From Nymphaea colorata (taxonomy: Eukaryota; Streptophyta; Magnoliopsida; Nymphaeales; Nymphaeaceae): a DNA stretch of 64,000 nucleotides. Each line of letters begins with the position of its first letter. The first letter of the stretch is position 1. The notes beneath the pieces are model-generated. The model was not told where the DNA came from. It saw nothing but the letters and a program-made list of their open reading frames with translations, and ran no database searches. The stretch is taken from positions 2,299,001-2,363,000 of the forward strand of contig NC_045142.1 of the NCBI RefSeq assembly GCF_008831285.2, written 5' to 3'. The position numbers and the translations under genes were made by a program. This document shows positions 18,272-64,000 of this stretch, piece by piece.

Positions 18272-18280
18272 GGGGGAGAC
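18270..18280 (+). other. polypurine tract of the copia element
   Basis: GAGGGGGAGAC lies directly before the 3' LTR and overlaps the last bases of the Gag-Pol stop codon. It is the standard site of plus-strand priming in copia elements. Confidence 0.9.
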
Positions 18281-28970: not shown

Positions 28971-29033
28971 GGCTGCAGAGGTGGTGAGCTCAAACAGGGG
29001 AAAGATCATGCTTGGGGAATTGGTCCGTCTTTG

Positions 29034-29040
29034 TTTTATA
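29034..29040 (-). promoter_or_regulatory. TATA box of the GLOX-like gene
   Basis: TATAAAA on the minus strand, 64 nt upstream of the preferred ATG and only about 25 nt upstream of the alternative ATG at 29,009. Normal plant TATA-to-start spacing is roughly 30 nt. Confidence 0.6.
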
Positions 29041-34537: not shown

Positions 34538-34569
<32 letters not shown>

Positions 34570-37500: not shown

Positions 37501-40500
37501 TGTCATCATCCAAAAGGTAGAATGTCAAAGATTCTACCAGAGAGTGACTTCCAATGCCAAAAGTATTAGCATAATCATCAATCACTTTTCTCCATTCTCC
37601 ATCAGGTAGTGTCCAATAAAGATCAAACAAGTAGTACAGCAGCTGCATTTAGGTTAAGGAATCAAAAGATGGTGTCAGAGAGAAATTTGGGGCTAAAAGC
37701 ATCAAGGATACGATGGCTCGCTTTGCAACAAGTAGATCAGAGCTCCCTTGTAGGAAAAGCATATCAACAGCAGCTCGCAAGTTCTCAAATGGGTAGATTC
37801 CTGATGCTTCTTCAATTGACAATGATGAGCTGCGATCTTTCAAAAGACATGCAACTTCAAGTTCTCCAGACCCCTCCTGTCCTTGTTCCATCACAAGATT
37901 TGACAATGCATCCTCTATGAACAAAGTAGATCCTGGCTGTGCAGCTTCAGTATCATTACACATGAATTCGGGCCAACAGCGTCTCATGGCTGCTGTTTTT
38001 CTTTCATGAAATGTGGAGCGCCATGAGGAGATAGTTGAATAACGTGAAGGCATGTGCTCAAGAAACTGATGCCTTATGCACCATACCATAACTTCCAAAT
38101 GCTGGAAAAATCACAAAAGGATACCCAAAAGGGGAAAATATCAGAGAAGAAAGTGAAAACAGTCAATTTCAATGAAACAAATGTGCTCTGTTGATAAAAA
38201 AAGGTATCAGACATAATTCTTCACCCAAGTCCTCAAGAAAAAAAAAAAACATTTCTCCAAACAAAATTTATCAAACAAGCTGAAGAACATGCACAATGAG
38301 AATAAAAGACAAGGTGAATCAAGGACATAAAACTAAACAATCAACATGCAAAAGATTCAATCTGTTAACTCCAAAGGAAGATGAGAGGACAACCTACACA
38401 AAGACATTGTTATGATATCTATATGCAGTCAAAACTCTAGCAATAATGCCTAGGTGGTGAGTGTCCCCCTAAAGCCTAGGTGAGAGGCCTTTGTGGTGTT
38501 TTATACATGGTGAGGTCTCTCTCACTTAGTCAAAAACTCTAGCAATAATAACTAGGTGGTTAGTGTCCCCTAGAGCCTAGGTGAGAGGCCTCTGTGGTGT
38601 TTTATACATGCTGAGGTCTCTCTCTCTCTCTCTCCCCTACTTCCCCAACTCCCCCCCCCCCCCCACACACACACACAAAAAAAGACACACAGACATTAAT
38701 GCACCCACCCAAAATTTTACATTATTCAGTTTAATTTGATATATATGTTTCTCATATTTTATTTAGCAGAAGACATATATTACACTAGTTGTTCTTGACA
38801 CACAAATTTGTCTTTTCAGAGATAAAACATCAATGGCTCAAATGATTCAAAAGCCTCATACCTATTTAGATAAGTTTACATTTGTCAGGATATAAGCATT
38901 GTGAAAGATATTGACAGGCTTAAATCAGACTAAATAACACAAATATGTTTTTTAATTTTTGTGGGACCAAAAATGATGCCTGATCAATGGCCGGTGTAGC
39001 AACACATTCTCCCAATTCAATTTAAATAAACAAATCCATAAATATGCACATATATACATGTGTATATCTTATATAAGTTTGCTACGGTACTTTTGTATGT
39101 GGAATCTAGTTTGGATTTGCAATTTCAGTTGGTTATATGTGTTTAGCACTATATTACATGAGTGTGGGTGCAAAGTTAGGTAAAGGTGTGGAAAGAAGAG
39201 AACAACAATTCAGGAAACTTAGATATAGGAATGCGCCTATATAAAAGAATAAAATGGTCAGCATATAGCCAAATTACATTGGTAAATGGTAACAACAGAT
39301 ATAAAGTATTCACAATTACAAGGCTTAGTGGAAATGGATAATACAACTGATCAAATAAAAAATTATCAAAAGTTTCAGAGTTGTTTAGAAAAAAAAGAAG
39401 GTTAGACTGTCAAACTTGACTGGATTCAGAATTGACAAGAAAGAGCACAAGATGTGTAACCACATGTTATATGGCTTTAACCGTGACCCCTGTTCTGAAG
39501 TATTGGTACAGGTACAGCTGCCTTTTACACAGACCCTGCTATTCGTTCAGCAAGACAAAAACTTATAAATCAACTCTCTCTTTGCCTTGCCCTTTTTACT
39601 CTTCCCACCTTTCCCGACACTAAACACTAGGTTTTTTCATATAAATTCTACAATATTTCAGCCCTTAATTCTCAGATCATCAAAAAGAACCTTCATGCAT
39701 GTCAGGTTCAGCAATTCAAGAGCTGTACTCCAAATCTCCAATCAACTAACCTCATAGATCGCATATTTAGGGCTGGAAAATATCTAATCTAGATTGCGTA
39801 TCCAAATGGTAGAAAATATATATCACATATGAGACATACATATGGATTATGGTGAAAGGATAATGTTTGCTACATTTGAAACCCCTACACATACACATAC
39901 ATGGATACAAAATAACATTTGCGCCCTTTGTGGTTTCAATCCCTCAAAGAAATATTTGTAAGATAAGTATCTTTCGAATCAACATAAGTATCTTCTAGAT
40001 GTATACATTCAATTCTATATGGTTTGAAAGCTTTCTGTGAATATTGCATCTCATCAAATATAATTTATAAATCAAGATAACATTATTTACATCAATTCCT
40101 AGGTTTAGAAACACAGAAATCGCAGCAATTACCAAACCATGTTAACGAGTAGGAATTTGTAGTAGACTGATGTATTGACTCAAGCCATTTCAGTTTACGA
40201 GTTCCATGGATAACATCTGTACCTGTTTTGCTCTTAAGACATTTTCACAAAGATGATGCAGCTCCTCAAGTTGTGGAGACTGGGTCCCTTGAAAAGATGC
40301 ATCTAAAGTATCAAGCACATGTGCTAGGCCACTCAGCAGTAGCATTGGTTTTAGCAACGATGTGGAATTTCTGGTCATCTCTTTCACTTCAACTTTGTCT
40401 ACATCAAGTACCAATACAAACTTAAATTAAGACAATAATGAAAGTAAACATAACTAAAAGATAATGTTTCCCATGGTCTGGTGGTTGGTAAAATACATTT

Positions 40501-43500
40501 TGAATGCAGATCTGCTAAGGTGCTCTTGAATACCCTCTTGCACCATTCTGTCACAACAACTTCATCCAAGAGGATGGCCACAACAGGATCACTGGACACA
40601 GCACTTTCATCCATACATACATCAGTGATATCTACAAGTATATAGGACAATCACAACATACAAGAAAACGGCTTATGGAAACTAAGAAATAAGAATGAAA
40701 AGGAAGGACCCCAGGACTTACAGTGCCATGTAGACAATAGTGTCCTAAATTAAGAGAAAATGGCAACATTCAACACTAGCAGATCAAAGTATTGTTCCTT
40801 TCAGGAACCCAACCACCTTCTTCGTTCCCCACCCCCACCAAACACAACAAAAAAAAAAAGGAAAAGTGGCAACAGTATAATAAGAAAGAAACAAACTTGT
40901 GAAAAGGATACAGTGACAAATCAAAGTAACCAAATTGTTCTCCACAGCAACATCAAACAAAGAATACAATCGTTGCACATCAACTGTTGAATGTTTTTCT
41001 CCTCTTTGCTGAAACTGATCAGCATGCTCCTTAGGAATGAGACCAGCCTCCACGCATTGATCATACAAGCGCAACTGAAAGTTGTTGCCACTCCTTGGTA
41101 TTGCAGTCTTGCATATTGGGCACATGTCACATTTCTGTCTGCATTCTGCACATAGGGGTGCATGTTGACATGAGGTCAGGACATGTTGAACATAGCGACC
41201 ACAGCTTCTCAGATCTCTTGTGGCTCGACACAGTTCGAGTTTTGCTTCTTTGCACAAATCAATTGGATCAATAGAGGCAAGATGTTCTAAAGCATCCTGA
41301 AACAGAATTTCAGTCAGGAAGAAGTTGATCAAATTTGGGTAAGACTGCACCGTGAGAAAATAAAAAACAATTAACATGGAAGAACATATTTCTATACTCA
41401 TTGAGCGAGAGAGAGATGCATGCACACAATCTCCACAACAACTAAGAAAATGTCTATTCACAAAATTTTCAGTTGGCATCCTCATCAAGTAGGTGGGAAA
41501 TGTTTGCTAGCCTGATTTTTTGTATGTTAAAATATCACCTACCTTTCTATTGCTTTCTACTCCTCAATCTGAAGTTTCATCTTATTGCTTATATTGTTTT
41601 TGCTCATGAGTAGAAGTGGTTGAACTGACCAACATAAACATTGCAAAACTTCCTGCTATGCTCTAGGTCACCGAGAGGAAGTTCTATACGTCGCTCTGTG
41701 TATATAACGAGCATACGCCGGATGTGGACCCTACTATTAATATGCATATTTACTTTCATGCCCAAACATTGCATATGCATGTGCATGAGATAACAAAGAG
41801 GAATGAAATAACAAATAAGTATGAGACAATGTGTATAAGATAATAAAAGATTAATGAGATAACGAGATAACAAATAGATGTATGAGATAATGCTAAACAT
41901 AAGTATGAGATAATATTTATTGGATAACAAAAGAATTATGAGAAAATGAGATAACAGACAGATGTATAAGATAACGCTAAACATAAATATGAGATACCGT
42001 TTATGAGATAATAACATATTTGTGAGATAATGAGATAGCCGATGGATGTATGAGATAACGTTAAACATAAGTATGAGATAATGTTTATGAGATAATAAAA
42101 TATTTATGAGATAATGAGGAGATAGCCGATGGATGTATGAGATAACGTTAAACATAAGTATGAGATAATGTTTATGAGATAATAAAATATTTATGAGATA
42201 ATGAGATAACACTATGAACAGGACAAAAAAAAAGAAAACTCTTTCTTACTGCTTAGAGGGGTGTATTAGCCATAACGATATGCATATACGGACTGACAAA
42301 TTTTACCTTTATCAAATCCCCAAATCTTCTTTTTGTGTTTCCTTTTTTGTCCCTACAAAAAGTTTTTTTTTTGCATTAATCATGGGTATTTTTTTGTCAT
42401 TATTAAAATGGCACATGAAATTTCATGCACGAGGACGGCGTATATGACCAGCTTCGCATCTATGCAGCAAAAAGCTTTAGCCCACATAGGCTCCACAGGT
42501 GCAAGCTAACACTTACGATCATTTCAGTTTTCCAATTGTTTTTAAATATTACAATGCCTACAGCTTTTTGTTACTTTGGTGGACAATGTTACAATGTCTA
42601 TGTTTCCCTGTTACTTGTGATTTCTACCTCGTTGACTAGTCCCACCTAGGTGACAACCAGGGTTTTTAGGAGACTGACACCCAGCCATTGATTAGCATGT
42701 CTCATGACTTAGATGTCCACATAGAATATCTATTTGGTCTTTAGTTTTCATTACTTAGTTCCATCATAGAGTATTTGGTTTTCATTAGATGTACTATTAT
42801 ACTTCAGACACAAGGTAGGAGAATATCCATTAGCAGGACGAAAAATGAATATAAAAAGGCATATACCTAAATGCTTTTATATGCTTCAATATTCTTGGGT
42901 GATAGAGTGATGTATCGAGATCCCTCATTCTCAAACCTCATGCATTTTGGTTTCACAACCTTGTGTAAAGAATCTCAGCCACAATGAATCCAACATGGGC
43001 CAAGGAACCATGGATGGGCAGAATATCTTCTCTCCAAGTCTCTAACCCTCAAAAATCAAAGAGGTGAGGTACAGCACCAGAGAGGACACAACAGGTAGGT
43101 CCACACTCCACACCATATTGGTGGCTCACAAGCCCCATAAGATCCTCGATCTGATAATGAGGATCTAAAGCACACTCTAATTGCATGAGTAAACGGAAGT
43201 GTGTTTCCCAACATCTGCCGTCAAACGGAAGTGTGTTTCCCAACATCTGCCGTCAGACCTGTATCCATACGAAGTACTCAACCCTATATACCGGAGATGC
43301 AATCAATTAACAATGAGATGAGGTGAACATATGCGAGATATACCAGAGACCATATCCAGCTTATCACTGCCCTAATGGTCCACACCATCTAGAAAATATG
43401 TCATCTTGGTGGCGCTTCACATTGACAAGCGACATGACCACGTAAGCTGATTTCCTCTCCTTCGCATGTAAGGATACTCCATTCTTATCTGGTTGTATCA

Positions 43501-44360: not shown

Positions 44361-45699
44361 TGAACCCAGTTTCCATAAATAATTTGCGCAGCCCCACAGG
44401 CCCTCCGAATCGAACAGAAAATGAATCGCCCGATTCAGGCGGATTTTAACAGCAGTGATTTTTACATAATTTGTTTAAATTAAATTTGAAGATAAATTCA
44501 TGCTAGATCGAGTTTCTTTCTATTAGTCATGTGATAATGTGTTTTTCTGTGATAGGAATGTTGGATCATGATTCACACCCTTGACTTCTCTTGCACTCGG
44601 CAATATCAATTTCACTGGTTAAGGCGAAACTTTTAAATTAGGGGAATTAATAAATAATAATTAAAGTTATAGATTTTTTAGAAAAAATCTTAAACCTTGA
44701 AATATGCAATAAAATGATGAAGCGTAAGAATGTGAGCTGATTGGTACTCTTAAGTATTCATTTTTTCGATATTCACATATTTGACCTCAAATTCAGATTT
44801 GAATATGAATGAAAAGGTCATATCCAAATCTGAATCTAAAATCTGCTTTCACAATTCAAATCCAGGTTTTAAATTTATATCTAAATCCAAATCCAAATTT
44901 TAAACTGTCTGAAATCTGATCAGACATTTATGTATATCTAAACCCAAATCCAATCAAATGTCATTTCATAAAATCCGAGTGCAATCTAATTACTTAATAA
45001 GATATTAAATTTGTTACCATACCCAAATTTTGGAAAAGTTTGATCGGATATCCGATCCAAACCAGATGTATTGACATCTCTTTCTCTTATTTTTCTCATG
45101 ATTTTATATGGTATCCAGTGAACAATGCAGTCATATGCTGACTACTGAAACAATCATATATATATATATATATATATAATTTTCCTTTGTCCCCAAAGTA
45201 TTGTTTTAGTGTAAAAAGTAGCACTATATAAATTGAACTAATGATCACTGGTCTGCTAATCTAACCATTCATGTTATCTTCCATGAAGCAATTGATAAAG
45301 ATTATATGGGTTATATTGATGCATGAATTTTCGTGTTTCAATATAGTTAACGATTAAAATACTTTTACTTCACACTTGGAAAATCAAACTTTTTTGTAAA
45401 AACAAAAATTAAAATAAAAAATAAAAATATTATAAAAGACATTTCTTTTTAAAAAATTACCAAAATGCTATTCGCTCCTTTACTGCCCATTATGTGCACG
45501 GCGCACACAACTTTCTCCATTTATTAAAAAGAATAAAAGAATAACTATATATACAGTTAGCCGGCAAAATAATACAAGGTTTAAGAGTGGCAAAATTTAA
45601 GATTGGAAGGAAACCAATGAGTGAACCAACAAAGCAATACAAGATGAAACCAAGAAAAAAAAGCTGTTTCATTTTACTAGTTTACTCCAATAACAAGGT

Positions 45700-46564: not shown

Positions 46565-47679
46565 GTCGTCGACCTAAATCCGATGGATGGTTGAAAGAAA
46601 AAAAGAGAAAAAAAATGTAAACTAATAATAGACGATGAAAATATTTGTCACTTTTTTGTTCTTGTTTTTCTCTTAAATGTTAAATTTGATAATTCGATTT
46701 TTCTCAATATCAGCAACATTAAAGTGCCTTTTTATTTATTTTTATAAATTCCATTTGCTGTCATGTTTAATGACCTAAACACCCCTTATAAAATTCTTCA
46801 AAATAATAGAATATTGATTAGGAAATTTATGTTGCTTTTAAATGTTGTTACGAAAATGAATTTATTAATTAAAAAATGTATTTGTGACAGAGGATGCTCC
46901 ACCTCCTCAAATTTGAACTGCTCGCCAGAGCATGCACATAGCACGACGTTCGTTCTGCGATTGCTTTCTATTATTGTTCACCCAGATCAACAGTTTGTGA
47001 CATTCCTTCGACCATTTCAAGAAGAGAAAGGTGCTGCTTATGTTGCCGTGCTGAAAAGCTAAAACAAGCATTAAACTTGCTCCCTGGAATTTGAGATTAA
47101 TTTTTTAACTAGTTAAAACATGTTGGGTGAGGACAAACTTTTACAAAGCATTGCCGTCTAGATGTTGATTTGTTTTTCAATTATACACAAGTAAGATATT
47201 TCAGGTTTTTCATATAAAAGTCGGAATACAAGTACTTGTAACACATTGTATAGCATATAGCTTGACTCTCAGAAACCGGTACTTCATATAATACTTCATA
47301 ATTCAACATGGTCATTTATGTATTGCTAGAAGCAAGTGTAAAGGCTTGATACATAATTTCAAATTATCACATTTGGTCAACATGGGTGTTTTAAGTTTTA
47401 ATGATCTTAACAAGTTTGAGTTGTTCTAAGTATCTAACAACACGTTTGTCACTGACTTCCTCATATTTATTTGAATCAACTTTCTAAATATTGTTGATGC
47501 TCGGCATTGGTTAACTTTGTAAACATATTACCTCAGTAGATATTGTTACGGATCGGTGCTTGTTACTGTTTTTAACATTTTTCTTTAATAATTTAAATAT
47601 AATTTGTTTGTAATTAATTTAATAAGATAACAAGCAAAAATTAAATAATTATATGTTCAACTTTAGAAGAAAAAGCAAC

Positions 47680-47736
47680 TATATATGTATATATATATAC
47701 ATACATATATATATATATATACATACATATATATAT
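47680..47736. repeat. TATA/CATACATA microsatellite
   Basis: Alternating TA with embedded ATACATACAT words. Confidence 0.85.
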
Positions 47737-47882
47737 GAAAGATGACTGCCACTGAACGTACCTCGTTTTACTTCACATGTGAAATGCGCGAGAAATGCTG
47801 CTTTCAAATAAAATTAAATCTAAAATTCAAATGATCGGTGGAGCGGATGACCAGAATGGAAGTAACCGTTTCTTGATTGCTT

Positions 47883-49026
47883 TTAGTTGCCGTTGATCGT
47901 CGTCGTCCAGAAGCTTCCGTTTCCGTCTCTTGCCTCTCCCGCGCTCCCGCGCTTCCAGCCCTCCACCACCACAACCGCTCGCTCTTCCGCCGGCGCTCTC
48001 CACCACCACCGCTGCTCGCTCTCCAGCCGGCGACCTCCACCACCACTGTCGTGACTGGCGACGCCGGCGAGTATCCGGCGGCGGTGTCGCCAGGGAAGCA
48101 CCGGCGCCGGGAGGAAGAGGGCCTTGTCGAGGCTGCCGTTGGGCATGAATTCGTAGACCAGGAGGATCTCTGATACGGCCCAGCCTACCGACCCCACCAG
48201 TCTCCCTTTCTGGTGGCACCATCCCAGAAGTTGGACAAGGTTCCGGTGGCGGAGGGCACCGATGATGGACAACTCGGATAGGAACTCTGCCTTCCCCTGC
48301 CCGCCGCTCTCATTACTACACCTCTTCACCGCCACCACGGCCCCTGTCTCCGCGATCACCCCCTTGTAGACAGTGCCGAATGCGCCGTGCCCGATTATCC
48401 GGCTGCAATCGAAGTTCCTCGTCGCCGATTTCAGCGTCCGGTAGCTGAATTCACGAGGTGCCCTGACCATCTCCGACGCCGGTATCTCAAGCAGGCCATC
48501 GGCGCGCCGCAATCGGACGCCCCGGAAGCGAAAGCAGATGATGAGGCCTGCGCAGGCGACCAGCACTAACGCGCCGGCAGTAACGGCCCCAGCGACGGCT
48601 CCCGGATCGGACTTGCAGAGGCGGTTGTGGCACGGAGAAGAAGAGGCTCGTTCTGGTGCGGGGAAGGGGCAAAAGAATTAGCCGTTGAAGAGGGTGGTGG
48701 GTAAGTGGTGGGGCTACTGCCGCTGCTACTAGCAGGTGGGCCCTGTCCCTGGAAAATATTCGTTGGCGGTGGAGGGGGAGGGGGTGGCGGCTGCGAAGAG
48801 GAAGAAGGGGAGGGGGAAGAGGAGGATAAGGAAGACGGGAGGGAGGAAGTAAAGCTCCACCACTGGATTGTATGGGTTTCGGTGCTGCCCTGGGTGGACG
48901 CAGAGAATCGGACGAATGCGTACTCCCGGAGGTGGGCGGCCATGTCCACGTGCGTCGGCCATGGCGAGGGAAGGAGGCTGCTCATGAGGGGGGTGGGTCG
49001 GCAGACGGTGACCCTAAGAACAGATT
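47883..49026 (-). pseudogene. L-type lectin receptor kinase (clade VIII-like) pseudogene
   Basis: Minus-strand relic of a plasma-membrane receptor kinase with an extracellular legume-lectin domain. Visible in order: the end of the lectin domain (HLREYAFVRFSASTQGSTET, WWSF), a Pro/Ser-rich linker, then in a different frame CHNRLCKSDPGAVAGAVTAG leading into the membrane segment, the juxtamembrane part and the kinase N-lobe with IGHGAFGTVYKG, VAVKR and the alpha-C SELSII. Defects: most of the lectin domain is missing, with an in-frame TAA near 49,024; a frameshift lies somewhere in 48,568-48,677; 11 extra residues (RLVGSVGWAVS) sit between HQKG and EILLVYEF; and the kinase stops after RRRILAGVAS near 48,050, so the HRD and DFG catalytic motifs are absent. 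It cannot make a working receptor. Clade VIII genes are normally intronless, so splicing is a poor explanation. Confidence 0.85.
47959..48070. repeat. GC-rich ~37-bp imperfect repeat at the broken kinase end
   Basis: Three adjacent units of about 37 bp each contain CTCCACCACCAC and end GCCGGCG (units ending near 47,996, 48,033 and 48,070). The last unit overlaps the final recognisable kinase codons, so the repeat begins exactly where the kinase homology is lost. Confidence 0.6.
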
Positions 49027-51599
49027 ACTTTCTGGGATTTTTTTAACGTTCCTGACCCATTCATCCATCCGCAGTGATAGCAATTTGCGAGCGAAGGTGT
49101 TGATCGAGGAGTCTCGATTCATCTCAAGCTGCATTATCTACGGTAATAGGATATCTCTCACTCACTCTCCCCCTCCGTCCATCTTTCTTTCTTTCTTTGT
49201 TTCTTTCGCTTTCTCTATCTTTCTCTCCGATTAATTGCCGTGCATTGCATGCACTTGCTCCGATTGCCAAAGGCTTCGGGTGTCGTTTCACAAGCGAACT
49301 TCTTCCCATTCTTCTTAGTTAAGATATTGTTGTCAAACTAGCTCATCAAACTAGGGCTTCGTTTGAAATCTCAAAGGTTTTCATATGTAGGCCTTTGGAA
49401 AACTTGAGTGACTAATTAAATCATGCAGACAAGTGTCCTTACATTCCTATACATACAAAAACTAAAATACGTTGATTCTTTCTCTGTTATTTTTCCAGAC
49501 TCTAAATATTGTAAGCTACCTTGAGGGTTTTCTCCCCAAAACTTCAAGATTGGTGGTTTCATGGAGTTGAAGTTTTAATTGGTTGCTAAAGGTGGATGTT
49601 AGGTAAGTAAGACTTCAGTTCCATGAACTTCATTGGTCTTGAAGGCCATACGGTTTATGGAAATTAGTTTACAAGTTAATCAGTGAACTGCTTTGTTTAA
49701 TATATCTATTTCATAAATATGCTTTGTGTATAAGTTTTACATATAAGTTATGTATTTCGTTATTGCTTTACAGATAATATGTAAGCTAATAGTCTGGTTA
49801 ACTATTTTGATTAGTGTGTTATAAGAATCATGCTTTGTTCTGCTCCTTTTCCTGTATGTTTGCTCTCTATCTTTTGGCCTGACAATATAAACATATTATC
49901 TTTATGCCTTACAATATGCGCGCATAATCTGTTTTATTGTATTTCTAATTTTGTTATATGTGATATGTTATGTATTTATGTATCTTCCTACTATATAAGG
50001 TTATTATAATTTGTATTCCTACTTATTTTTTGTTTGAAAATATTTCACCTCATGTCGTCAGATGTTTCAGTAGAATAACTTTTTTCCACCTACAGTCCAA
50101 TTACTAAAACAATTGAAATAACTGAGCCCTTCCATTCATTAATGGCAGACATTCAGGAAAAGGGACTGAAATGTGTATGTTCATGAAAAGCGTCTACAAA
50201 CAGTAGTCAAACCAAAGAATAATCATACTTAGGCTTTTCTCAATTTCCCTTTCCTTTTGGTCCCTTATTGTGCATCTTGCCTATAGAACCATAAGGCTAG
50301 GTCGTGATCTATTTCTATATAGACTATTACATTTTATGGGATAAAATTATTGATAAATTTAACCATTAATATGATTTAGTTTCTAACATTAATTGTGTTA
50401 GCTTTATCCATTTTCTAGCTTATCATTTCATGCATAAGATACTCTTCATGATGTCTCCTTGAAGTGGACAAAGGACTTAATCCATACAAGTAAATGGTCA
50501 CTGACTCACTGCTATTGACTAGAAACTTATTCCATTAAAACGTCCAATTCAATTCAACGGAGGCCCTAGTGGGTCATGGCCAAACGCATGTTGTTCATCA
50601 ATTATGGTTCAAAACATCAAATTCTTGGCTGATGGATTGTGATCTTAAGATACAGAACAACAAGTTTAGAAAGTAATGGTCTTCTTCTTTAATAGTATAA
50701 TAAACTCTTCCTTTTTATACACTTCTTTAGTTCTCATAAATTTATTTTTTATTTATGGTCACCATTCAAACTGATTTTATCTCTATCTTGCACTGCATTT
50801 ATTTCCCCTTTATCTATGGGATATTTCTGAATTTCTAAATTTACTGTTTTGTTCCAAAGGAACAAAAATTTGTGAAACAACAGAAAGGAAATGTTGCCTT
50901 TATTAACAATCTCTTTTTGCTACCCGAAAATATGATTTATTCATGTGCCCTTCTTTTAATAGGATCAATTCTTTTGGAATAACCTCATGAATGCAGGTTG
51001 CTTGAGGAACAAGATTTCTGGTACGTTTGGAGGCTCTAAATCAAACATTGTTTTACACAGCGGGCACAATAGAGGTACAGTTGCTTGTGCCTCTATCATG
51101 CTATTCGTATGCTTTAGGCTGGAGATATTCTCTGTTCTAATTGGTAGCTGATATTCAGGTTTTATGCTTTCACTTGTTTGCAAAATTTTTTGTGTCTTGA
51201 AGTTTAATCTCCTTTTCCTTGGTTAGAGGATTTATTTTGCTTTATTAGTACAATTATGTAGACATTAGCAGTTTGCAGATCACCATAACATGGCATGGTA
51301 ACAGTTACAACTTTCTTTTGCCTCTTAAATCAAGTTCAAAGGTTGGTAACCTGTGAAGTTATGCTGCTATAGCTGCTTTCAATCTGAAAATGCTTTCAGT
51401 CGCTTTGTAGTTATATGAAAGTGTTATTGGTTGCAGGTTAATTTTTAAATTTTGCTGCTTGGGTGTTTGTTATTGTTGGTTGTCCATGTATATTAAGCTT
51501 CTGTTGTTTCATGAGCCGTTCATGGTTAATTAGTAACACAACAACTGGTTTATTGTTGTTAATGCATGACTAATTGTGATAGTTAATAGCAACAAATGC
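49027..51599. other. intergenic DNA, no gene seen
   Basis: AT-rich with only short open frames. A 72-codon minus frame at 50,965-51,183 contains LCPLCKTMF but no complete RING or other domain, so it is not called. Confidence 0.5.
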
Positions 51600-51712
51600 A
51601 TCATTAATTCTATCATTACTGTTAGTGGCGCCATTCATGATGAAGAGTTGGCATCACTGATGACATTTAGTGAAGCATGGTGTACATCACTAAATGCTAT
51701 TTTCTTGTAGTG
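51600..51712. mobile_element. candidate CACTA transposon terminus
   Basis: TTTTCTTGTAGTG (51,700-51,712) is the reverse complement of CACTACAAGAAAA, the usual plant CACTA (En/Spm) end. Just inside it are short inverted words typical of CACTA subterminal DNA: CATTTAGTGA (51,664-51,673) and TCACTAAATG (51,687-51,696) pair perfectly. The other terminus was not found, so this is a remnant or the second end lies too far or has decayed. Confidence 0.5.
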
Positions 51713-51726
51713 AAGTTTAGTGAAGC

Positions 51727-54700
51727 ATGTCAACATGATGCATCGGTATCATGGTCAGTTTTATGAGGTTATGTGTGATCTTCTCGTTATGGGCGCAAAA
51801 GATGCGATGAACCCTATTCAACAAGATGAAAAACAGTGCCGTGAGACCTGGAAACTTATCAAGGAACTTGATGAAGCAATATCCCTACCATCAAGTTGAA
51901 AATGTCAATTGGATGCAATTGGGATAATTGGCTGACTGATTGTCAAAATCAATGCATAGCCAACTTGATGCATTGTTATAATGGTCAATTTTAAGAGTTT
52001 ATGTGTGATCATTTCATTATGAGCGCAAAACAAGCGATGAAACCTCTACCAAAAGAGAGTAAACAGTCCCGTGAGACCTGGGAACTGCTCAATGATCTTG
52101 ATGAAGCAACGTCCCGTCCATCAAGTTAAAAATGTCAGTTGGATGCAATTGCAATAAACAACTAATAGATTGACTCAACCAATGCATGGCCAACTTGATG
52201 CATCGTGTAATTCTCAGTTTTAGGATGTTATGTGTGATCGTCTCATTATGAGCGCAGAAGATACGATGAACCTCGTTCAACAAGGGGGTTTAATAGTCCC
52301 GTGAGACCTGGGTACTCCTCAAAGCTCTTGATGAAACAACGTCCACTCCATCAAGTTAAAATTGTCAATTAGATGCAGTTGAAATAAATGACTGACTAAT
52401 AGACACAACCAATGCATGGCCAACTTGATGCATTGGTATAATGGTGAGTTTTAGGAGTTGGTTTGTGATCATTTCGTTATGAGTGCAAAAGACGTGATGA
52501 AACCTCTTCCACAAGAGAGTAAATTGTCCCGTGAGACCTGGGAAGTCCTTAAGGATCTTGATGAAGCAACGTCACGTCCATCAAGTTAGAAATATCAATT
52601 GGAATAAACAACCAACAGATTGATGCATGGCCAACTTGATGCATGGTGTAATTCTCAGTTTTAGGATGTTATGTGTGATCGTGTCATTATGAGCGCAGAA
52701 GATACGATAAACCTCGTCCAACAAGGGGGTTTAATAGTCCCGTGAGACCTGGGGTCTGCTCAAAGCTCTTGATGAAACAACGTCCACTCCATCAAGTTAA
52801 AATTGTCAATTAGATGCAGTTGAAATAAATGACTCACTAATAGACACAACCAATGCATGGCCAACTTGATGCATTGGTATAATGGTCAGTTTTAGGAGTT
52901 GGTTTGTGATCATTTCGTTATGAGTGCAAAAGACACGATGAAACCTCTTCCACAAGAGAGTAAATTGTCCTGTGAGACCTGGGAACTGCTAAAGGATCTT
53001 GATTAAGCAACGTCACGTTCATCAAGTTAGAAATGTCAATTTGAATGGACAACTAACTGATTGATGCATGGCCGACATGATGCATGGTGTAATTGTCGGT
53101 TTTAGGATGTTATGTGTGATCGTGTCATTATGAGCGCAGAAGATACGATGAACCTCGTCCAACAGGGGGGTTTAATAGTCCCGTGAGACCTGGGGTCTGC
53201 TCAAAGATCTTGATGAAACAACGTCCACTTCATCAAGTTAAAATTGTCAATTAAATGCAGTTGAAATAAATGACTGACTAATAGACACAACCAATGCATG
53301 GCCAACTTGATGCATTGGTATAATGGTCAGTTTTAGGAGTTGGTTTGTGATCATTTCGTTATGCGTGCAAAAGACGCGATGAAACCTCTTCCACAAGAGA
53401 GTAAATTGTCCCGTGAGACCTGGGAAGTCCTCAAGGATCTTTATGAAGCAACGTCACGTTCATCAAGTTAGAAATATATATTGGAATAAACAACTAACAG
53501 ATTGATGCATGGCCAACTTGATGCATGGGGTAATTCTCAGTTTTAGGATGTTATGTGTGATCGTGTCATTATGAGCGTAGAAGATACGATGAACCTCGTC
53601 CAACAAGAGGGTTTAATAGTCCCGTGAGACCTGGGGTCTGCTTAAAGATCTTGATGAAACAACGTCCACTCCATCAAGTTAAAATTGTCAATTAGATGCA
53701 GTTGAAATAAGTGACTGACTAATAGACACAACCAATGCATGGCCAACTTGATGCATTAGTATAATGGTCAGTTTTAGGAGTTGGTTTGTGATCATTTCGT
53801 TATGAGTGCAAAAGACGCGATGAAACCTCTTCCACAAGAGAGTAAACAGTCCCGTGAGATCTGGGAACTGCTAAAGGATCTTAATGAAGCAACGTCACGT
53901 TCATCAAGTTAGAAATGTCAATTTGAATGGACAACTAACTGATTGATGCATGGCCGACATGATGCATGGTGTAATTGTCGGTTTTAGGATGTTATGTGTG
54001 ATCGTGTCATTATGAGCGCAGAAGATACGATGAACCTCGTCCAACAGGGGGGTTTAATAGTCCCGTGAGACCTGGGTACTCCTCAAAGCTCTTGATGAAA
54101 CAACGTCCACTCCATCAAGTTAACATTGTCAATTAGATGCAGTTGAAATAAATGACTGACTGATAGACACAACCAATGCATGGCCAACTTGATGCATTGT
54201 TATAATGGTCAGTTTTGTGAGTTTGTTTGTGATCATTTCATTATGAGCTCAAAAGAGGCCATGAAAGCTCTTCCACAAGAGAGTAAACTGTCCCATGAGA
54301 CCTGGAAACTGCTCAAGGATCTTGATGAAACAAAGTCCCGTCCATCAAGTTGGAAATGTCAATTGGAATAAGCAACTAACAGATTGATGCATGGCCAACT
54401 TGATGCATTGTGTAATTGTCAATTTTAGGATGTTATGTGTGATCGTGTCATTATGAGCGCAGAAGATACGATGAACCTCGTCCAACAAGGGGGTTTAATA
54501 GTCCCGTGAGACCTGTGGTCTGCTCAAAGATCTTGATGAAACAACTTCCACTCCATCAAGTTAAAATTGTGAATTAGATGCAGTTGAAATAAATGACTGA
54601 CTAATAGACACAACCAATGCATGGCCAACTTGATGCATTGGTATAATGGTCAGTTTTAAGAGTTGGTTTGTGATCATTTCGTTATGAGTGCAAAAGACGC

Positions 54701-57700
54701 GATGAAACCTTTTCCACAAGAGAGTAAATTGTCCCGTGAGACCTGGGAACTGCTAAAGGATCTTGATGAAGCAACGTCACCCTCATCATGTTAGAAATGT
54801 CAATTGGAATGGACAACTAACTGATTGATGCTTGGCCAACTTGATGCATGGTGTAATTGTCAGTTTTAGGATGTTATGTGTGATCGTGTCATTTTGAGCG
54901 CTGAAATACGATGAACCTCGTCCTACAGAGGGGTAAATAGTCCCGTGAGAGCTGGGGTCTGCTCAAAGATCTTGATGAAACAAGGTCTACCCCATCAAGT
55001 TAAAATTGTCAATTAGATGCAGTTGAAATAAATGAGTGACTAATAGACACAACCAATGCATGACCAACTTGATGCATTGGTATAATGGTCAGTTTTAGGA
55101 GTTGGTTTGTGATCATTTCGTTATGAGTGCAAAAGACGCGATGAAACCTTTTCCACAAGAGAGTAAATTGTCCCGTGAGACCTGGGAAGTCCTCAAGGAT
55201 CTTTATGAAGCAACGTCACGTCCATCAATTTAGAAATATCAATTGGAATAAACAACTAACAGTATGATGCATGGCCAACTTGATGCATGGTGTAATTCTC
55301 AGTTTTAGGATGTTATGTTTGATCGTGTCATTCTGAGCGCAGAAGATACGATGAACCTCGTCCAACAAGGGGGTTTAATAGTCCCATGAGACCTGGGGTC
55401 TGCTCAAAGATCTTGATGAAACAATGTCCACCCCATCAAGTTAAAATTGTCAATTAGATGCAGTTGAAATAAATGACTTGAAATAAATGACTGACTAATA
55501 GACACAACCAATGCATGGCCAACTTGATGCATTGGTATAATGGTCAGTTTTAGGAGTTGGTTTGTGATCATTTCGTTATGAGTGCAAAAGACGCGATGAA
55601 ACCTCTTCCACAAGAGAGTAAATTGTCCCGTGAGACCTGGGAAGTCCTCAAGGATCTTGATGAAGCAACGTCACGTCCATCAAGTTAGAAATATCAATTG
55701 GAATAAACAACCAACAGATTGATGCATAGCCAACTTGATGCATGGTGTAATTCTCAGTTTTAGGATGTTATGTGTGATCGTGTCATTATGAGCGCAGAAG
55801 ATACGATGAACCTCGTCCAACAAGGGGGTTTAATAGTCCCGTGAGACCTGGGGTCTGCTCAAAGCTCTTGATGAAACAACGTCCACTCCATCAAGTTAAA
55901 ATTGTCAATTAGATGCAGTTGAAATAAATGATTGACTAATAGACACAACCAATGCATGGCCAACTTGATGCATTGGTATAATGGTTAGTTTTAGGATTTG
56001 GTTTGTGATCATTTCGTTATGAGTGCAAAAGACGCGATGAAACCTCTTTCACAAGAGAGTAAACAGTCCCGTGAGACCTGGGAACTGCTAAAAGATCTTG
56101 ATGAAGCAACGTCTCGTTTATCAAGTTAGAAATATCAATTGGAATCAACAACTAAGAGATTGATGCATGGCCAACTTGATGCATGGTATAATTCTCAGTT
56201 TTAGGATGTTATGTGTGATCGTGTCATTATGAGCGCAGAAGATACGATGAACCTCGTCCAACAAGTGGGTTTAATAGTCCCGTGAGACCTGGGGTCTGCT
56301 TACAGATCTTGATGAAACAACGTCCACTCCATCAAGTTAAAATTGTCAATTAGATGCAGTTGAAATAAATGACTGACTAATAGACACAACCAATGCATGG
56401 CCAACTTGATGCATTGGTATAATGGTCAGTTTTAGGAGTTGGTTTGTGATCATTTCGTTATGAGTGCAAAAGACGCGATGAAACCTCTTCCACAAGAGAG
56501 TAAACAGTCCCGTGAGACCTGGGAACTGCTAAAGGATCTTGATGAAGCAACGTCACGTTCATCAAGTTAGAAATATCAATTGGAATAAACAACTAACAGA
56601 TTGATGCATGGTGTAATTCTCAGTTTTAGGATGTTATGTGTGATCGTGTCATTATGAGCGCAGAAGATACGATGAACCTCGTCCAACAAGGGGGTTTAAT
56701 AGTCCCCTGAGACCTGGGGTCTGCTCAAAGATCTTGATGAAACAACGTCCACTCCATCAAGTTAAAATGGTCAATTAGATGCAGTTGAAATAAATGACTG
56801 ACTAATAGACACAACCAATGCATGGCCAACTTGATGCATTGGTATAATGGTCAGTTTTAGGAATTGGTTTGTGATCATTTCGTTATGAGTGCAAAAGACG
56901 CGATGAAACCTCTTCCACAAGAGAGTAAATTGTCCCGTGAGACCTGGGAACTGCTAAAGGATCTTGATGAAGCAGCGTCACGTTCATCAAGTTAGAAATG
57001 TCAATTTGAATGGACAACTAACTGATTGATGCATGGCCGACATGATGCATGGTGTAATTGTCAGTTTTAGGATGTTATGTGTGATCCAACAGGGGTGTTT
57101 AATAGTCCCGTGAGACCTGGGTACTCCTCAAAGCTCTTGATCAAACAACGTCCACTCCATCAAGTTAACATTGTCAATTAGATGCAGTTGAAATAAATGA
57201 CTGACTGATAGACACAACCAATGCATGGCCAACCTGATGCATTGGTATAATGGTTAGTTTTAGGAGTTGGTTTGTGATCATTTCGTTATGAGTGCAAAAG
57301 AGGTGATGAAACCTCTTCCACAAGAGAGTAAACAGTCCCGTGAGACCTGGGAACTGCTAAAAGATCTTGATGAAGCAACGTCTCGTTTATCAATTTAGAA
57401 ATATCAATTGGAATAAACAACTAAGAGATTGATGCATGGCCAACTTGATGCATGGTGTAATTCTCAGTTTTAGGATGTTATGTGTGATCGTGTCATTATG
57501 AGCGCAGAAGATACGATGAACCTCGTCCAACAAGGGGGTTTAATAGTCCCGTGAGACCTGGGGTCTGCTCAAAGATCTTGATGAAACAACGTTCACTCCA
57601 TCAAGTTAAAATTGTCAATTAGATGCAGTTGAAATAAATGACTGACTAATAGACACAACCAATGCATGGCCAACTTGATGCATTGGTATAATGGTCAGTT

Positions 57701-60700
57701 TTAGGAGTTGGTTTGTGATCATTTCATTATGAGTGCAAAAGACGCGATGAAACCTCTTCCACAAGAAAGTAAACAGTCCCGTGAGAACTGGGAACTGCTA
57801 AAGGATCTTGATGAAGCAACATCACGTTCATCAAGTTAGAAAATATCTATTGGAATAAACAACTAACAGATTGATGCATGGCCAACTTGATGCATGGTGT
57901 AATTCTCAGTTTTAGGATGTTATGTGTGATTGTGTCATTATGAGCGCAGAAGATACGATGAACCTCGTCCAACAAGGGGTTTAATAGTCCCGTGAGACCT
58001 GGGGTCTGCTCAAAGATCTTGATGAAACAACGTTCACTCCATCAAGTTAAAATTGTCAATTAGATGCAGTTGAAATAAATGACTGACTAATAGACACAAG
58101 CAATGCATGGCCAACTTGATGCATTGCTATAATGGTCAATTTTAGGAGTTGGTTTGTGATCATTTCGTTATGAGTGCAAAAGACGCGATGAAACCTCTTC
58201 CACAAGAGAGTAAACAGTCCCGTGAGACCTGGGAACTGCTAAAGGATCTTGATGAAGCAACGTCACGTTCATCAAGTTAGAAATATCAATTGGAATAAAC
58301 AACTAACAGATTGATGCATGGTCAACTTGATGCATGGTGTAATTCTCAGTTTTAGGATGTTATGTGTGATCGTGTCATTATGAGCGCAGAAGATACGATG
58401 AACCTCGTCCAACAAGGGGGTTTAATAGTCCCGTAGGACCTGGGGTCTGCTTAAAGATCTTGATGAAACAACGTCCACTCCATCAAGTTAAAATTGTCAA
58501 TTAGATGCAGTTGAAATAAATGACTGACTAATAGACACAACCAATGCATGGCCAACTTGATGCATTGGTATAATGGTCAGTTTTAGGAGTTGGTTTGTGA
58601 TCATTTTATTATGAGTGCAAAAGACGCGATGAAACCTCTTCCACAAGAAAGTAAACAGTCCCGTGAGACCTGGGAACTGCTAAAGGATCTTGATGAAGCA
58701 ACATCACGTTCATCAAGTTAGAAAATATCTATTGGAATAAACAACTAACAGATTGATGCATGGCCAACTTGATGCATGGTGTAATTCTCAGTTTTAGGAT
58801 GTTATGTGTGATTGTGTCATTATGACGCAGAAGATACGATGAACCTCGTCCAACAAGGGGGTTTAATAGTCCCGTGAGACCTGGGGTCTGCTCAAAGATC
58901 TTGATGAAACAACGTTCACTCCATCAAGTTAAAATTGTCAATTAGATGCAGTTGAAATAAATGACTGACTAATAGACACAGCCAATGCATGGCCAACTTG
59001 ATGCATTGGTATAATGGTCAGTTTTAGGAGTTGGTTTGTGATCATTTCGTTATGAGTGCAAAATACGCGAGGAAACCTCTTCCACAAGAGAGTAAACAGT
59101 CCCGTGAGACCTGGGAACTGCTAAAGGATCTTGATGAAGCGACGTCACGTTCAGCAAGTTAGAAAATATCTATTGGAATAAACAACTAACAGATTGATGC
59201 ATGGCCAACTTGATGCATGGTGTAATTCTCAGTTTTAGGATGTTGTGTGTGATCGTGTCATTATGAGCGCAGAAGATACGATGAACCTCGTCCAATAGGG
59301 GGTTTAATAGTCCCGTGAGACCTGGGTACTCATCAAAGCTCTTGATGAAACAACGTCCACTCCATCAAGTTAACATTGTCAATTAGATGCAGTTGAAATA
59401 AATGACTGACTGATAGACACAACCAATGCATGGCCAACTTGATGCATTGGTATAATGGTCAGTTTTAGGAGTTGGTTTGTGATCATTTCGTTATGAGTGC
59501 AAAAGAGGCGATGAAACCTCTTCCACAAGAGAGTAAACAGTCCCGTGAGACCTGGAACTGCTAAAGTATCTTGATGAAGCAACGTCACGTTCATCAAGTT
59601 AGAAATATCAATTGGAATAAACAACTAACAGATTGATGCATGGCCAACTTGATGCATGGTGTAATTCTCAGTTTTAGGATGTTATGTGTGATCGTGTCAT
59701 TATGAGCGCAGAAGATACGATGAACCTCGTCCAACAGGGGGTTTAATAGTCCCGTGAGACCTGGGTCTCCTCAAAGCTCTTGATGAAACAACGTCCACTC
59801 CATCAAGTTAAATTGTCAATTAGATGCAGTTGAAATAAATGACTGACTGATAGACACAACCAATGCATGGCCAACTTGATGCATTGGTATAATGGTCAGT
59901 TTTAGGAGTTGGTTTGTGATCATTTCGTTATGAGTGCAAAAGAGGCGATGAAACCTCTTCCACAAGAGAGTAAACAGTCCCGTGAGACCTGGGAACTGCT
60001 AAAGGATCTTGATGAAGCAAGTCACGTTCATCAAGTTAGAAATATCAATTGGAATAAACAACTAACAGATTGATGCATGGCCAACTTGATGCATGGTGTA
60101 ATTCTCAGTTTTAGGATGTTATGTGTGATCGTGTCATTATGAGCGCAGAAGATACGATAAACCTCGTCCAACAAGGGGGTTTAATAGTCCCGTGAGACCT
60201 GGGGTTTCTTAAAGATCTTGATGAAACAACGTCCATTCCATCAAGTTAAATTGTCAATTAGATGCAGTTGAAATAAATGACTGACTAATAGACACAACCA
60301 ATGCATGGCCAACTTGATGCATTGGTATAATGGTCAGTTTTAGGAGTTGGTTTGTGATCATTTCGTTATGAGTGCAAAATACGGATGAAACCTCTTCCAC
60401 AAGAGAGTAAACAGTCCCGTGAGACCTGGGAACTGCTAAAGGATCTTGATGAAGCAACGTCACGTTCATCAAGTTAGAAAATATCTATTGGAATAAACAA
60501 CTAACAGATTGATGCATGGCCAACTTGATGCATGGTGTAATTCTCAGTTTTAGGATGTTATGTGTGATCGTGTCATTATGAGCGCAGAAGATACGATGAA
60601 CCTCGTCCAACAGGGGGTTTAATAGTCCCGTGAGACCTGGGGTCTGCTTAAAGATCTTGATGAAACAACGTCCACTCCATCAAGTTAAAATTGTCAATTA

Positions 60701-63700
60701 GATGCAGTTGAAATAAATGACTGACTAATAGACACAACCAATGCATGGCCAACTTGATGCATTGGTATAATGGTCAGTTTTAGGAGTTGGTTTGTGATCA
60801 TTTCGTTATGAGTGCAAAAGACGCGATGAAACCTCTTCCACAAGAGAGTAAACAGTCCCGTGAGACTGGGAACTGCTAAAGGATCTTGATGAAGCAACGT
60901 CACGTTCATCAAGTTAGAAATATCAATTGGAATAAACAACTAACAGATTGATGCATGGCCAACTTGATGCATGGTGTAATTCTCAGTTTTAGGATGTTAT
61001 GTGTGATCGTGTCATTATGAGCGCAGAAGATACGATGAACCTCGTCCAACAAGGGGGTTTAATAGTCCCGTGAGACTGGGGTCTGCTAAAGATCTTGATG
61101 AAACAACGTCCACTCCATCAAGTTAAAATTGTCAATTAGATGCAGTTGAAATAATGACTGACTAATAGACACAACCAATGCATGGCCAACTTGATGCATT
61201 GGTATAATGGTCAGTTTTAGGAGTTGGTTTGTGATCATTTCGTTATGAGTGCAAAAGACGCGATGAAACCTCTTCCACAAGAGAGTAAACAGTCCCGTGA
61301 GACCTGGGAACTGCTAAAGGATCTTGATGAAGCAACGTCACGTTCATCAAGTTAGAAATATCAATTGGAATAAACAACTAACAGATTGATGCATGCCAAC
61401 TTGATGCATGGTGTAATTCTCAGTTTTAGGATGTTATGTGTGATCGTGTCATTATGAGCGCAGAAGATACGATAACCTCGTCCAACAAGGGGGTTTAATA
61501 GTCCCTGAGACCTGGGGTCTGCTTAAGATCTTGATGAAACAACGTCCACTCCATCAAGTTAAAATTGTCAATTAGATGCAGTTGAAATAAATGACTGACT
61601 AATAGACACAACCAATGCATGGCCAACTTGATGCATTGCTATAATGGTCAGTTTTAGGAGTTGGTTTGTGATCATTTCGTTATGAGTGCAAAATACGCGA
61701 TGAAACCTCTTCCACAAGAGAGTAAACAGTCCCGTGAGACCTGGGAACTGCTAAAGGATCTTGATGAAGCACGTCACGTTCAGCAAGTTAGAAAATATCT
61801 ATTGGAATAAACAACTAACAGATTGATGCATGGCCAACTTGATGCATGGTGTAATTCTCAGTTTTAGGATGTTATGTGTGATCGTGTCATTATGAGCGCA
61901 GAAGATACGATGAACCTGTCCAACAGGGGGTTTAATAGTCCCGTGAGACCTGGGTACTCTCAAAGCTCTTGATGAAACAACGTCCACTCCATCAAGTTAA
62001 ATTGTCAATTAGATGCAGTTGAAATAAATGACTGACTGATAGACACAACCAATGCATGGCCAACTTGATGCATTGGTATAATGGTCAGTTTTAGGAGTTG
62101 GTTTGTGATCATTTCGTTATGAGTGCAAAAGAGGCGATGAAACCTCTTCACAAGAGAGTAAACAGTCCCGTGAGACCTGGGAACTGCTAAAGGATCTTGA
62201 TGAAGCAACGTCACGTTCATCAAGTTAGAAATATCAATTGGAATAAACAACTAACAGATTGATGCATGCCAACTTGATGCATGGTGTAATTCTCAGTTTT
62301 AGGATGTTATGTGTGATCGTGTCATTATGAGCGCAGAAGATACGATGAACCTCGTCCAACAAGGGGGTTTAATAGTCCCGTGAGACCTGGGGTCTGCTTA
62401 AAGATCTTGATGAAACAACGTCCACTCCATCAAGTTAAAATTGTCAATTAGATGCAGTTGAAATAAATGACTGACTAATAGACACAACCAATGCATGGCC
62501 AACTTGATGCATTGGTATAATGGTCAGTTTTAGGAGTTGGTTTGTGATCATTTCGTTATGAGTGCAAAAGACGCGATGAAACCTCTTCCACAAGAGAGTA
62601 AACAGTCCCGTGAGACCTGGGAACTGCTAAAGGATCTTGATGAAGCAACGTCACGTTCATCAAGTTAGAAATATCAATTGGAATAAACAACTAACAGATT
62701 GATGCATGCCAACTTGATGCATGGTGTAATTCTCAGTTTTAGGATGTTATGTGTGATCGTGTCATTATGAGCGCAGAAGATACGATGAACCTCGTCCAAC
62801 AAGGGGGTTTAATAGTCCCGTGAGACCTGGGGTCTGCTTAAAGATCTTGATGAAACAACGTCCACTCCATCAAGTTAAAATTGTCAATTAGATGCAGTTG
62901 AAATAATGACTGACTAATAGACACAACCAATGCATGGCCAACTTGATGCATTGGTATAATGGTCAGTTTTAGGAGTTGGTTTGTGATCATTTCGTTATGA
63001 GTGCAAAAGAGCGATGAAACCTCTTCCACAAGAGAGTAAACAGTCCCGTGAGACCTGGGAACTGCTAAAGGATCTTGATGAAGCAACGTCACGTTCATCA
63101 AGTTAGAAATATCAATTGGAATAAACAACTAACAGATTGATGCATGCCAACTTGATGCATGGTGTAATTCTCAGTTTTAGGATGTTATGTGTGATCGTGT
63201 CATTATGAGCGCAGAAGATACGATGAACCTCGTCCAACAAGGGGGTTTAATAGTCCCGTGAGACCTGGGGTCTGCTTAAAGATCTTGATGAAACAACGTC
63301 CACTCCATCAAGTTAAAATTGTCAATTAGATGCAGTTGAAATAAATGACTGACTAATAGACACAACCAATGCATGGCCAACTTGATGCATTGGTATAATG
63401 GTCAGTTTTAGGAGTTGGTTTGTGATCATTTCGTTATGAGTGCAAAAACGCGATGAAACCTCTTCCACAAGAGAGTAAACAGTCCCGTGAGACCTGGGAA
63501 CTGCTAAAGGATCTTGATGAAGCAACGTCACGTTCATCAAGTTAGAAAATATCTATTGGAATAAACAACTAACAGATTGATGCATGGCCAACTTGATGCA
63601 TGGTGTAATTCTCAGTTTTAGGATGTTATGTGTGATCGTGTCATTATGAGCGCAGAAGATACGATGAACCTCGTCCAACAGGGGGTTTAATAGTCCCGTG

Positions 63701-64000
63701 AGACCTGGGTCTGCTCAAAGATCTTGATGAAACAACGTCCACTCCATCAAGTTAAATTGTCAATTAGATGCAGTTGAAATAAATGACTGACTGATAGACA
63801 CAACCAATGCATGGCCAACTTGATGCATTGGTATAATGGTCAGTTTTAGGAGTTGGTTTGTGATCATTTCGTTATGAGTGCAAAAGAGCGATGAAACCTC
63901 TTCCACAAGAGAGTAAACAGTCCCGTGAGACCTGGGAACTGCTAAAGGATCTTGATGAAGCAACGTCACGTTCATCAAGTTAGAAATATCATTGGAATAA
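51727..64000 (+). repeat. satellite DNA array, 441-bp higher-order unit (211 + 230 bp monomers)
   Basis: Two related monomers alternate: A (about 211 bp, with GCATTGGTATAATGGTCAG and CCACAAGAGAGTAAA) and B (about 230 bp, with GCATGGTGTAATTCTCAG and CCAACAAGGGGGTTTAATAG). Both share GTCCCGTGAGACCTGGG and CATCAAGTTA. Measured A-to-A spacing is 441 bp through most of the array (for example 52,412, 52,853, 53,294, 53,735, 54,176, 54,617), with 27 A monomers in the regular part. The first monomers (51,727-52,412) are more diverged and irregularly spaced, as expected at an array edge. The array continues past the window end. The scale suits a centromeric, pericentromeric or subtelomeric satellite; which one cannot be told here. 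Confidence 0.96.
51735..51899 (+). pseudogene. open 54-codon frame in the edge monomer of the satellite
   Basis: The outermost satellite monomer reads open from ATG 51,735 to TGA 51,897-51,899. Its product looks protein-like (FYEVMCDLLVMGAKDAMN, CRETWKLIKELDEAIS). The same frame is kept in many A-type monomers except for one TAG or TAA at the Tyr10 codon; the monomer at 54,180 keeps it open as Cys for 63 codons. No known family is recognised. It may be the relic of a coding fragment that seeded the satellite, or a chance frame. Confidence 0.35.

Follow-up and report, generated by a model that had tools for sequence, protein, structure and literature searches.

A dimeric higher-order satellite repeat in Nymphaea colorata and a family of related arrays with locus-specific multimers

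How does a tandem repeat come to be organized in units of two unlike monomers, and does such an organization point to a role for the array that carries it? These questions are raised by the right-hand end of a 64,000-nucleotide stretch of Nymphaea colorata DNA (contig NC_045142.1, here called C5, positions 2299001–2363000), which we refer to as the window and in whose coordinates, continued rightwards past 64000, all unlabelled positions are given. There, a satellite array is built of two kinds of monomer, L of 230 bp and S of 211 bp, which take turns. For the analysis, 80 kb to the right of the window was added, and the host assembly (407,766,735 bases in 783 contigs) was searched for related sequences. 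Our current working hypothesis, to which we assign a probability of about 0.73, is that the array belongs to a satellite family in which neighbouring variants have been copied and homogenized as multimers specific to each locus, and that the window array has grown from inside and has no role of its own.

Organization of the array

The array begins at 51730, with all copies arranged head-to-tail on one strand. Tandem Repeats Finder (TRF) describes 51731–64000 as 27.9 copies of a 441-bp period (90% matches, score 17456), and for the same stretch a period of 230 fits worse (66% matches, score 6862). Cutting the window array at a common start motif gave 56 monomers, the 56th of which is incomplete at the window end. 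The first two, m1 (51730..51959, + strand) and m2 (51960..52189, + strand), are both 230 bp long and lie outside the dimer. From 52190 onward L and S alternate without exception, starting with an L monomer of 230 bp (52190..52419, + strand) and an S monomer of 211 bp (52420..52630, + strand) that lacks a 10-bp and a 9-bp stretch. The resulting dimeric higher-order repeat, with a modal unit of 441 bp, occupies 52190..64000 on the + strand and runs on to 90148 (C5:2389148). No gaps of more than 30 bp were found in the continuation to the right of the window, and the whole array comprises 38.4 kb, 175 monomers and ~86 dimers.

An initial annotation of the window had described an alternating 211/230-bp dimer over 51727..64000, with a unit of exactly 441 bp in most cases. 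The alternation is confirmed by the TRF scores and by the strict order of the monomers, and the 441-bp periodicity proposed for checking with that program was recovered. The extent needs correction at both ends, the array starting at 51730 and continuing far beyond the window, and the first two monomers (51730–52189) are not part of the dimer. Likewise, 441 bp is indeed the mode of the L-to-L spacing, but only 10 of the 26 intervals in the window, and 24 of the 86 in the whole array, have exactly this length; 23 of the 26 window intervals measure 435–442 bp and the others 403, 425 and 455 bp.

The two monomer types are clearly distinct. Mean identity in the window is 96.5% among L monomers and 95.5% among S monomers (27 copies and 351 pairs each) and 76.4% between L and S (729 pairs), and 164 of the 210 aligned columns are the same in the L and S consensus sequences. 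A maximum-likelihood tree was built from 55 monomers, omitting the incomplete one; in it, the 27 L copies form one group (100/99) and 26 S copies another (97/88). Because identity over the 175 monomers is 97.3% at lag 2 as against 76.4% at lag 1, the idea already put forward in the initial annotation, that homogenization works on the L–S dimer and not on the single monomer, is supported. Identity at lags 4, 6 and 8 is 97.4–97.5%; a unit larger than the dimer was rejected for the window array, lags 4 to 8 being no higher than lag 2. The array thus combines the features by which higher-order repeats are recognized: tandem non-coding monomers, a multimer exceeding the monomer in identity and TRF score, separate clusters in the tree, and divergent edges. 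It is a real plant satellite block with a dimeric higher-order repeat, a kind of system that is already well known.

Many of the short L-to-L spacings in the right part of the window reflect 1-bp deletions. Changes private to one copy, in the monomers up to 57669 that make up the left part of the window array, comprise 79 substitutions, one single-base deletion and one 14-bp insertion; further right there are 16 substitutions and 13 single-base deletions, and private insertions are absent (deletions versus substitutions, left versus right, Fisher P 3e-8); deletions common to several copies number 22 in the right part versus one in the left. This excess resembles the residual error of an unpolished long-read consensus, although some of the deletions are perhaps real variants, and we have taken the true repeat unit to be 441 bp. 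The surplus of 1-bp deletions is also what would speak for the array as such being an artefact, a long-read consensus that was collapsed or falsely expanded. We regard this as exceedingly improbable, as the edge copies carry many substitutions, the L and S types fall cleanly apart, and independent loci hold related units with different multimer lengths.

Growth of the array and its relatives in the genome

Identity to the consensus declines towards both ends of the array. For successive tenths it amounts to 0.971, 0.979, 0.992, 0.996, 0.995, 0.995, 0.995, 0.986, 0.982 and 0.974 for L, and to 0.950, 0.980, 0.996, 0.997, 0.998, 0.9995, 0.994, 0.982, 0.971 and 0.958 for S, tenths 4 to 7 thus standing at 99.5–99.6% (L) and 99.4–99.95% (S). 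Rare variants, which we defined as substitutions present in 2–10 of the 86 dimers, were compared between edges of 18 dimers each and the centre. Between the left and the right edge 0.56 such variants are shared per dimer pair, within the left edge 0.80 and within the right edge 0.46; the values are 0.004 and 0.009 for edge–centre pairs and 0.009 within the centre. Some pairs from opposite ends have many rare variants in common, dimers 4 and 84 sharing 20, dimers 6 and 85 sharing 10 and dimers 1 and 83 sharing seven. Since the gradient is symmetric, and since rare variants common to both ends are missing from the middle, we infer that the array expanded from within. The simplest reading is that the edge dimers are remnants of one older short array, between which the uniform middle would have grown.

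The edge monomers also bear on the origin of S. Two stretches of m2, of 10 bp and 9 bp, are missing from S close to its 3' end. None of the 26 complete window S copies has either of them, and m1 and m2 have both; of the 27 window L copies, every one has the 9-bp stretch and 26 have the 10-bp stretch, the exception having a 38-bp deletion nearby. As m2 groups with S in the tree (99/94) and is 88% identical to S as against 80% to L, it looks like a copy of the S lineage that predates the S deletions and was retained at the array edge. The outermost monomer, m1, is 76% identical to both L and S.

The family is not confined to the window locus. One 17-mer of a conserved block has 540 exact copies in the assembly, a lower bound on the number of monomers, and the reversed control has none. 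The block itself, the 18-bp AGTCCCGTGAGACCTGGG, was considered as a protein site and set aside, its run length not being unusual (P 0.10 versus shuffled columns). The matches listed from searches with the dimer and the m1 peptide fall on contigs C3, C4, C5, C9 and C12 and on the short contigs C29, C200, C336, C453 and C471. Among these matches and the listed places of the 17-mer, the loci of C3 lie at ~1.6, 16.1, 20.04–20.06 and 20.6 Mb, those of C9 at 11.5 and 24.93–24.96 Mb, with one copy at 25.18 Mb near the contig end, and those of C5 at 2.35 and 23.80 Mb.

For a comparison across the family, 11 stretches were cut into 476 monomers of >180 bp (shorter matches being dropped), which form 32 types at 90% identity. 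The order of these types varies by locus. The window locus is (L S)n. The array at C3:1.60M is a tetramer (lag 4 0.958, lags 1–3 ~0.80), C200, C29 and C453 hold a tetramer with variants (lag 4 ~0.90), and a tetramer is found also in part of C9:24.9M; C471 and C5:23.80M are trimeric (lag 3 ~0.95), as is another part of C9 by its type string. The types at C3:20.04M and C3:20.61M follow a less regular order. The window monomer m1 belongs to a type (A, from the 90% clustering) that reappears in the tetramer arrays of C9, C200, C29 and C453. The latter three contigs share ~99% identity among themselves and, in the left flank, with C9:24.96M; since they may be allelic, all were counted as a single locus with C9.

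A second regular dimer is found at C3:20.056–20.065M, with identity of 0.913 at lag 2 versus 0.757 at lag 1. Here the L copies (n=19) are 92.4% alike versus 97.5% in the C5 sample, and C3 L to C5 L stands at 93.0%; the S copies (18 of 19, leaving out one that fell below the cut) are 91.5% alike versus 96.2% at C5, and C3 S to C5 S stands at 90.2%. In trees that sampled the C5 array at 22 copies per type (from 87 L and 86 S), the C5 L copies form one group inside C3 L (80/89, the bootstrap not having settled) and 20 of the 22 C5 S copies form one group (100/99). These comparisons suggest that the L–S dimer probably predates the uniform part of the C5 array, where its amplification came later, and the nesting of C5 within C3 appears better supported by L than by S.

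One further explanation for the family starts from m1, which contains a 61-codon open frame (51714–51896, + strand) ending in a stop common to its relatives: the monomer could be the tandemly amplified 3' end of a protein-coding gene. Of the 476 monomers, 52 have this frame open, distributed over 10 of the 11 stretches, versus none and three for the other forward frames, and the best non-self genome matches among those listed keep the m1 peptide at ~78–86% identity. However, an equally long open stretch is reached in 416 of 1000 shuffles, and third codon positions show no excess of change, the counts at positions 1/2/3 being 5630/4791/5445 when the type consensus sequences are compared with one another and 5138/3655/4434 when the copies with the frame open are. 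Divergence is equal inside (0.192) and outside (0.198) the frame, and the m1 peptide has no match in Pfam, NCBIfam or PDB. The longest open stretch of the window array in six frames is 96 codons. With the shuffle, codon-position and family-match tests all negative, a coding origin is not supported and we consider it quite improbable.

Flanking arms and the proposed explanation

The DNA beside the array recurs next to related arrays elsewhere. To the left, an arm at 46884..51721 consists of five interrupted blocks whose order and orientation are those of the DNA left of the C9:24.96M array, to which they are 84–94% identical; it matches C453 at 76–92%, and its last 397 bp match C29 at 97%. The right flank (90160–94715) matches C3:20.030–20.035M at 97.4% over 4.6 kb, and C9, C200, C453 and C29 at 91–95% in shorter blocks. 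The arrangements differ in detail: C9 has an extra 2.4 kb between left arm and array, and C3 and C9 have ~1.2–1.3 kb between array and right arm, all of which is missing at the window locus, and at C9 a further array starts ~100 bp past the right-arm blocks. Also inside the left arm is a truncated protein-kinase gene fragment (48046..48950, − strand), its kinase domain recognized by Pfam, which we take to derive from an L-type lectin receptor kinase, the lectin part by our own reading. The C9 and C453 arms lack this fragment, having ~96 bp at that place, and it may represent a gene capture at the window copy or a loss in the other arms. Two smaller observations concern the flanks. A small irregular array at C3:20610758–20614000 contains more monomer types, and its left flank has pieces in common with the C9 arm. 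A weak collinear direct repeat (~70%), 44744–45083 versus 98368–98781, flanks the window array outside the shared arms.

Tandem repeats are carried inside some plant transposable elements, such as CACTA or long terminal repeat (LTR) elements, and the window array resembles these in lying between arms that recur elsewhere, close to a CACTA-type terminus motif. A possible, if tentative, reading is that a non-autonomous transposable element, of CACTA-like or another type, holds the array as an expanding internal segment, and that the array has the distribution of the element. The recurrence of arms on both sides at C9:24.96M, in unchanged order and orientation, and of the right arm at C3:20.03M would be expected of such an element, and the kinase fragment, present in the window copy and not in C9 or C453, would fit gene capture. 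The terminus motif is the 13-mer CACTACAAGAAAA (51700..51712, − strand), which lies 17 bp before the array and is identical to a published CACTA (En/Spm) terminal repeat (PMC7210773). Yet no convincing partner was found for it: five sites with ≤2 mismatches occur in the window versus 3.5 expected, and the ~9 kb leftward of it, both here and in C9, contains no partner. One candidate (36950, + strand, one mismatch, right orientation) is 14.7 kb to the left, beyond other gene exons, and is not above chance expectation for such sites. As the true border of the array the motif was rejected, since the homology with C9 goes on for 9 bp past the terminus and ~2.4 kb more follows before the C9 array. 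A search of the arms for direct repeats of LTR length found none, which tells against an LTR-borne array. In contrast to known element-borne repeats, no convincing paired termini or LTRs were found here, and the arrays at C5:23.80M showed none of the shared arms.

In a broader form of the same idea, for which we hold out a similarly guarded prospect, a carrier made of several-kb arms and a satellite core, with a captured kinase fragment in one copy, would spread between chromosomes, and the core would grow its own 2-, 3- or 4-mer at each site from within. If true, this would place an alpha-satellite-like family with site-specific higher-order repeats outside any proven centromere, and seeding, choice of multimer and layered growth could all be read in one small genome.

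The explanation that we prefer, homogenization of neighbouring variants as locus-specific multimers, would begin with an ancestral 230-bp non-coding monomer whose variants diverged until neighbours were ~76–83% identical. At individual loci a short run of two, three or four neighbouring variants would then have been copied and homogenized as one unit. To judge from the arms in common with other contigs, flanking DNA seems to have come along when the window array was seeded, and the dimer of this array most likely came from a lineage like that at C3:20.04–20.06M. S would first have lost its 10 and 9 bp, after which one L–S pair may have replaced an older mixed array and grown from inside, by unequal exchange or break-induced replication, to ~86 dimers (38.4 kb). 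At the edges, such growth would have spared diverging dimers of greater age and the two monomers that predate the dimer. Most likely the array has no role of its own and reflects repeat turnover that is selfish or neutral; heterochromatin could be a by-product.

Several points tell against parts of this account. Edge-to-edge sharing of rare variants could be old variation kept where homogenization is weak, and the low sharing between edge and centre is partly mechanical, central dimers having few variants, although the sharing between edges is not. Assembly or polishing may make the middle of the array look too uniform. As regards descent from a C3-like lineage, support for the C5 L grouping is modest (80/89); the two sampled C5 S copies outside the main group, one from each edge, pair together among C3 S; and identity between C3 and C5 S copies (90.2%) is below that among C3 S copies (91.5%), so that S alone gives no nesting in C3. 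The arms are compatible with a mobile carrier and with segmental duplication alike. Finally, lack of function is a default assumption.

Centromeres, neighbouring genes and known systems

The initial annotation had likened the array to centromeric satellites. On this interpretation, CENH3 nucleosomes would be positioned on the L–S dimers, and the dimer would be favoured by centromere drive or by break-induced replication at the kinetochore. Monomers of 211–230 bp could each hold one nucleosome plus linker, and the contigs C29, C200, C453 and C471 are only 24–45 kb long, which could mean that the assembly has not captured large arrays. Dimeric repeats with divergent edges and a uniform middle are also the layout given for human and macaque centromeres by Talbert & Henikoff (2022; PMC8997354). 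Against this, several separated loci lie on the same large contig (C3, C9, C5), if these contigs are taken, by their length, as chromosomes and their arrays as possibly incomplete; protein-coding genes recognized by Pfam lie ~10–25 kb to the left of the array and transporter-like open reading frames (ORFs), identified by reading, ~16 kb to its right; and the exact 17-mer copies, a minimum for the monomers, number 540. The ~10-bp periodicity of AA/TT expected of positioned nucleosomes is not clearly above that of shuffled sequences: of 500 shuffles, 110 are at least as periodic for L, 236 for S and 52 for L+S. A search of both strands of 51730–64000 for a CENP-B-like box found no site at ≤5 substitutions of the full box or one of its core; the CENP-B box is a trait of some mammalian arrays and is not required in plants. 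The likeness to centromeric satellites is therefore not borne out by the separate loci and the nearby genes, and we think a centromeric role unlikely.

Several other features lie in the neighbourhood of the array. On the left are a Copia-type LTR retrotransposon (13162–18661) with a 1404-codon open gag-pol frame, which is probably a young insertion as its two 381-bp terminal repeats are 100% identical, and an intact-looking 568-codon frame resembling glyoxal oxidase (27345–29051, − strand; Pfam Glyoxal_oxid_N and GO-like_E_set). Nearer the array, ~10 kb from it, ORFs at 33319–41506 (− strand) include an ELYS domain (36299–36901) and a weak RING match below the Pfam cut-off (40784–41506), and are presumably exons of a HOS1-like gene. 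A minisatellite of 84-bp units (41815–42211, 4.7 copies) lies inside a 213-codon open stretch. On the right, at least ~16 kb from the array end, C5:2403001–2413000 holds two related groups of ORFs on opposite strands which, by our reading, we take to resemble peptide transporters.

The monomer had no matches in a plasmid collection or among viral contigs; five Streptomyces and Amycolatopsis contigs with one exact 18-mer each were taken as chance. In the open-access literature we found, judging largely by title, no satellite of 441 bp, 211/230 bp or 230 bp matching this array, a 441-bp figure for cowpea being a read length and not a repeat unit, and a search of open-access text for six sequence strings of the satellite returned nothing that its title would relate to this one.

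Dimeric (AB) higher-order repeats are known from both plant and animal satellites. Melters et al. (2013; PMC4053949) describe an AB dimer in Sorghum bicolor and, among 171 species with Sanger data, clear cases of higher-order repeats in 76, recognized by TRF and clustering, as applied here. The window array resembles the Sorghum dimer in that score and identity are higher for the longer unit than for the monomer, and in that the two monomers cluster apart. It differs in its unequal monomers (211/230 bp), in the several multimer sizes present in one genome, and in a monomer sequence without match in the collections searched, which held no plant genomes. Disordered edge monomers around a uniform middle, with unequal exchange and break-induced replication as models, are set out by Talbert & Henikoff (2022; PMC8997354), and the window array fits this layout well. 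With human alpha-satellite, as presented there, it has in common divergent monomers per unit, near-identical units, divergent edges and different multimers in different arrays; it is unlike alpha-satellite in its size (38 kb versus megabases), in the absence of a CENP-B box from the part searched, and in the presence of several loci per contig. Less ordinary here are the different multimers within one small family and the shared arms. The origin of higher-order repeats has mostly been argued from megabase centromeres, whereas here a 38-kb array has both ends kept. Finding a clean higher-order repeat is not enough to call a centromere. An array that retains pre-dimer monomers at its edge, alongside a more diverse relative with the same dimer and trimer and tetramer sister arrays, makes models of unequal exchange and break-induced replication testable on a complete case.

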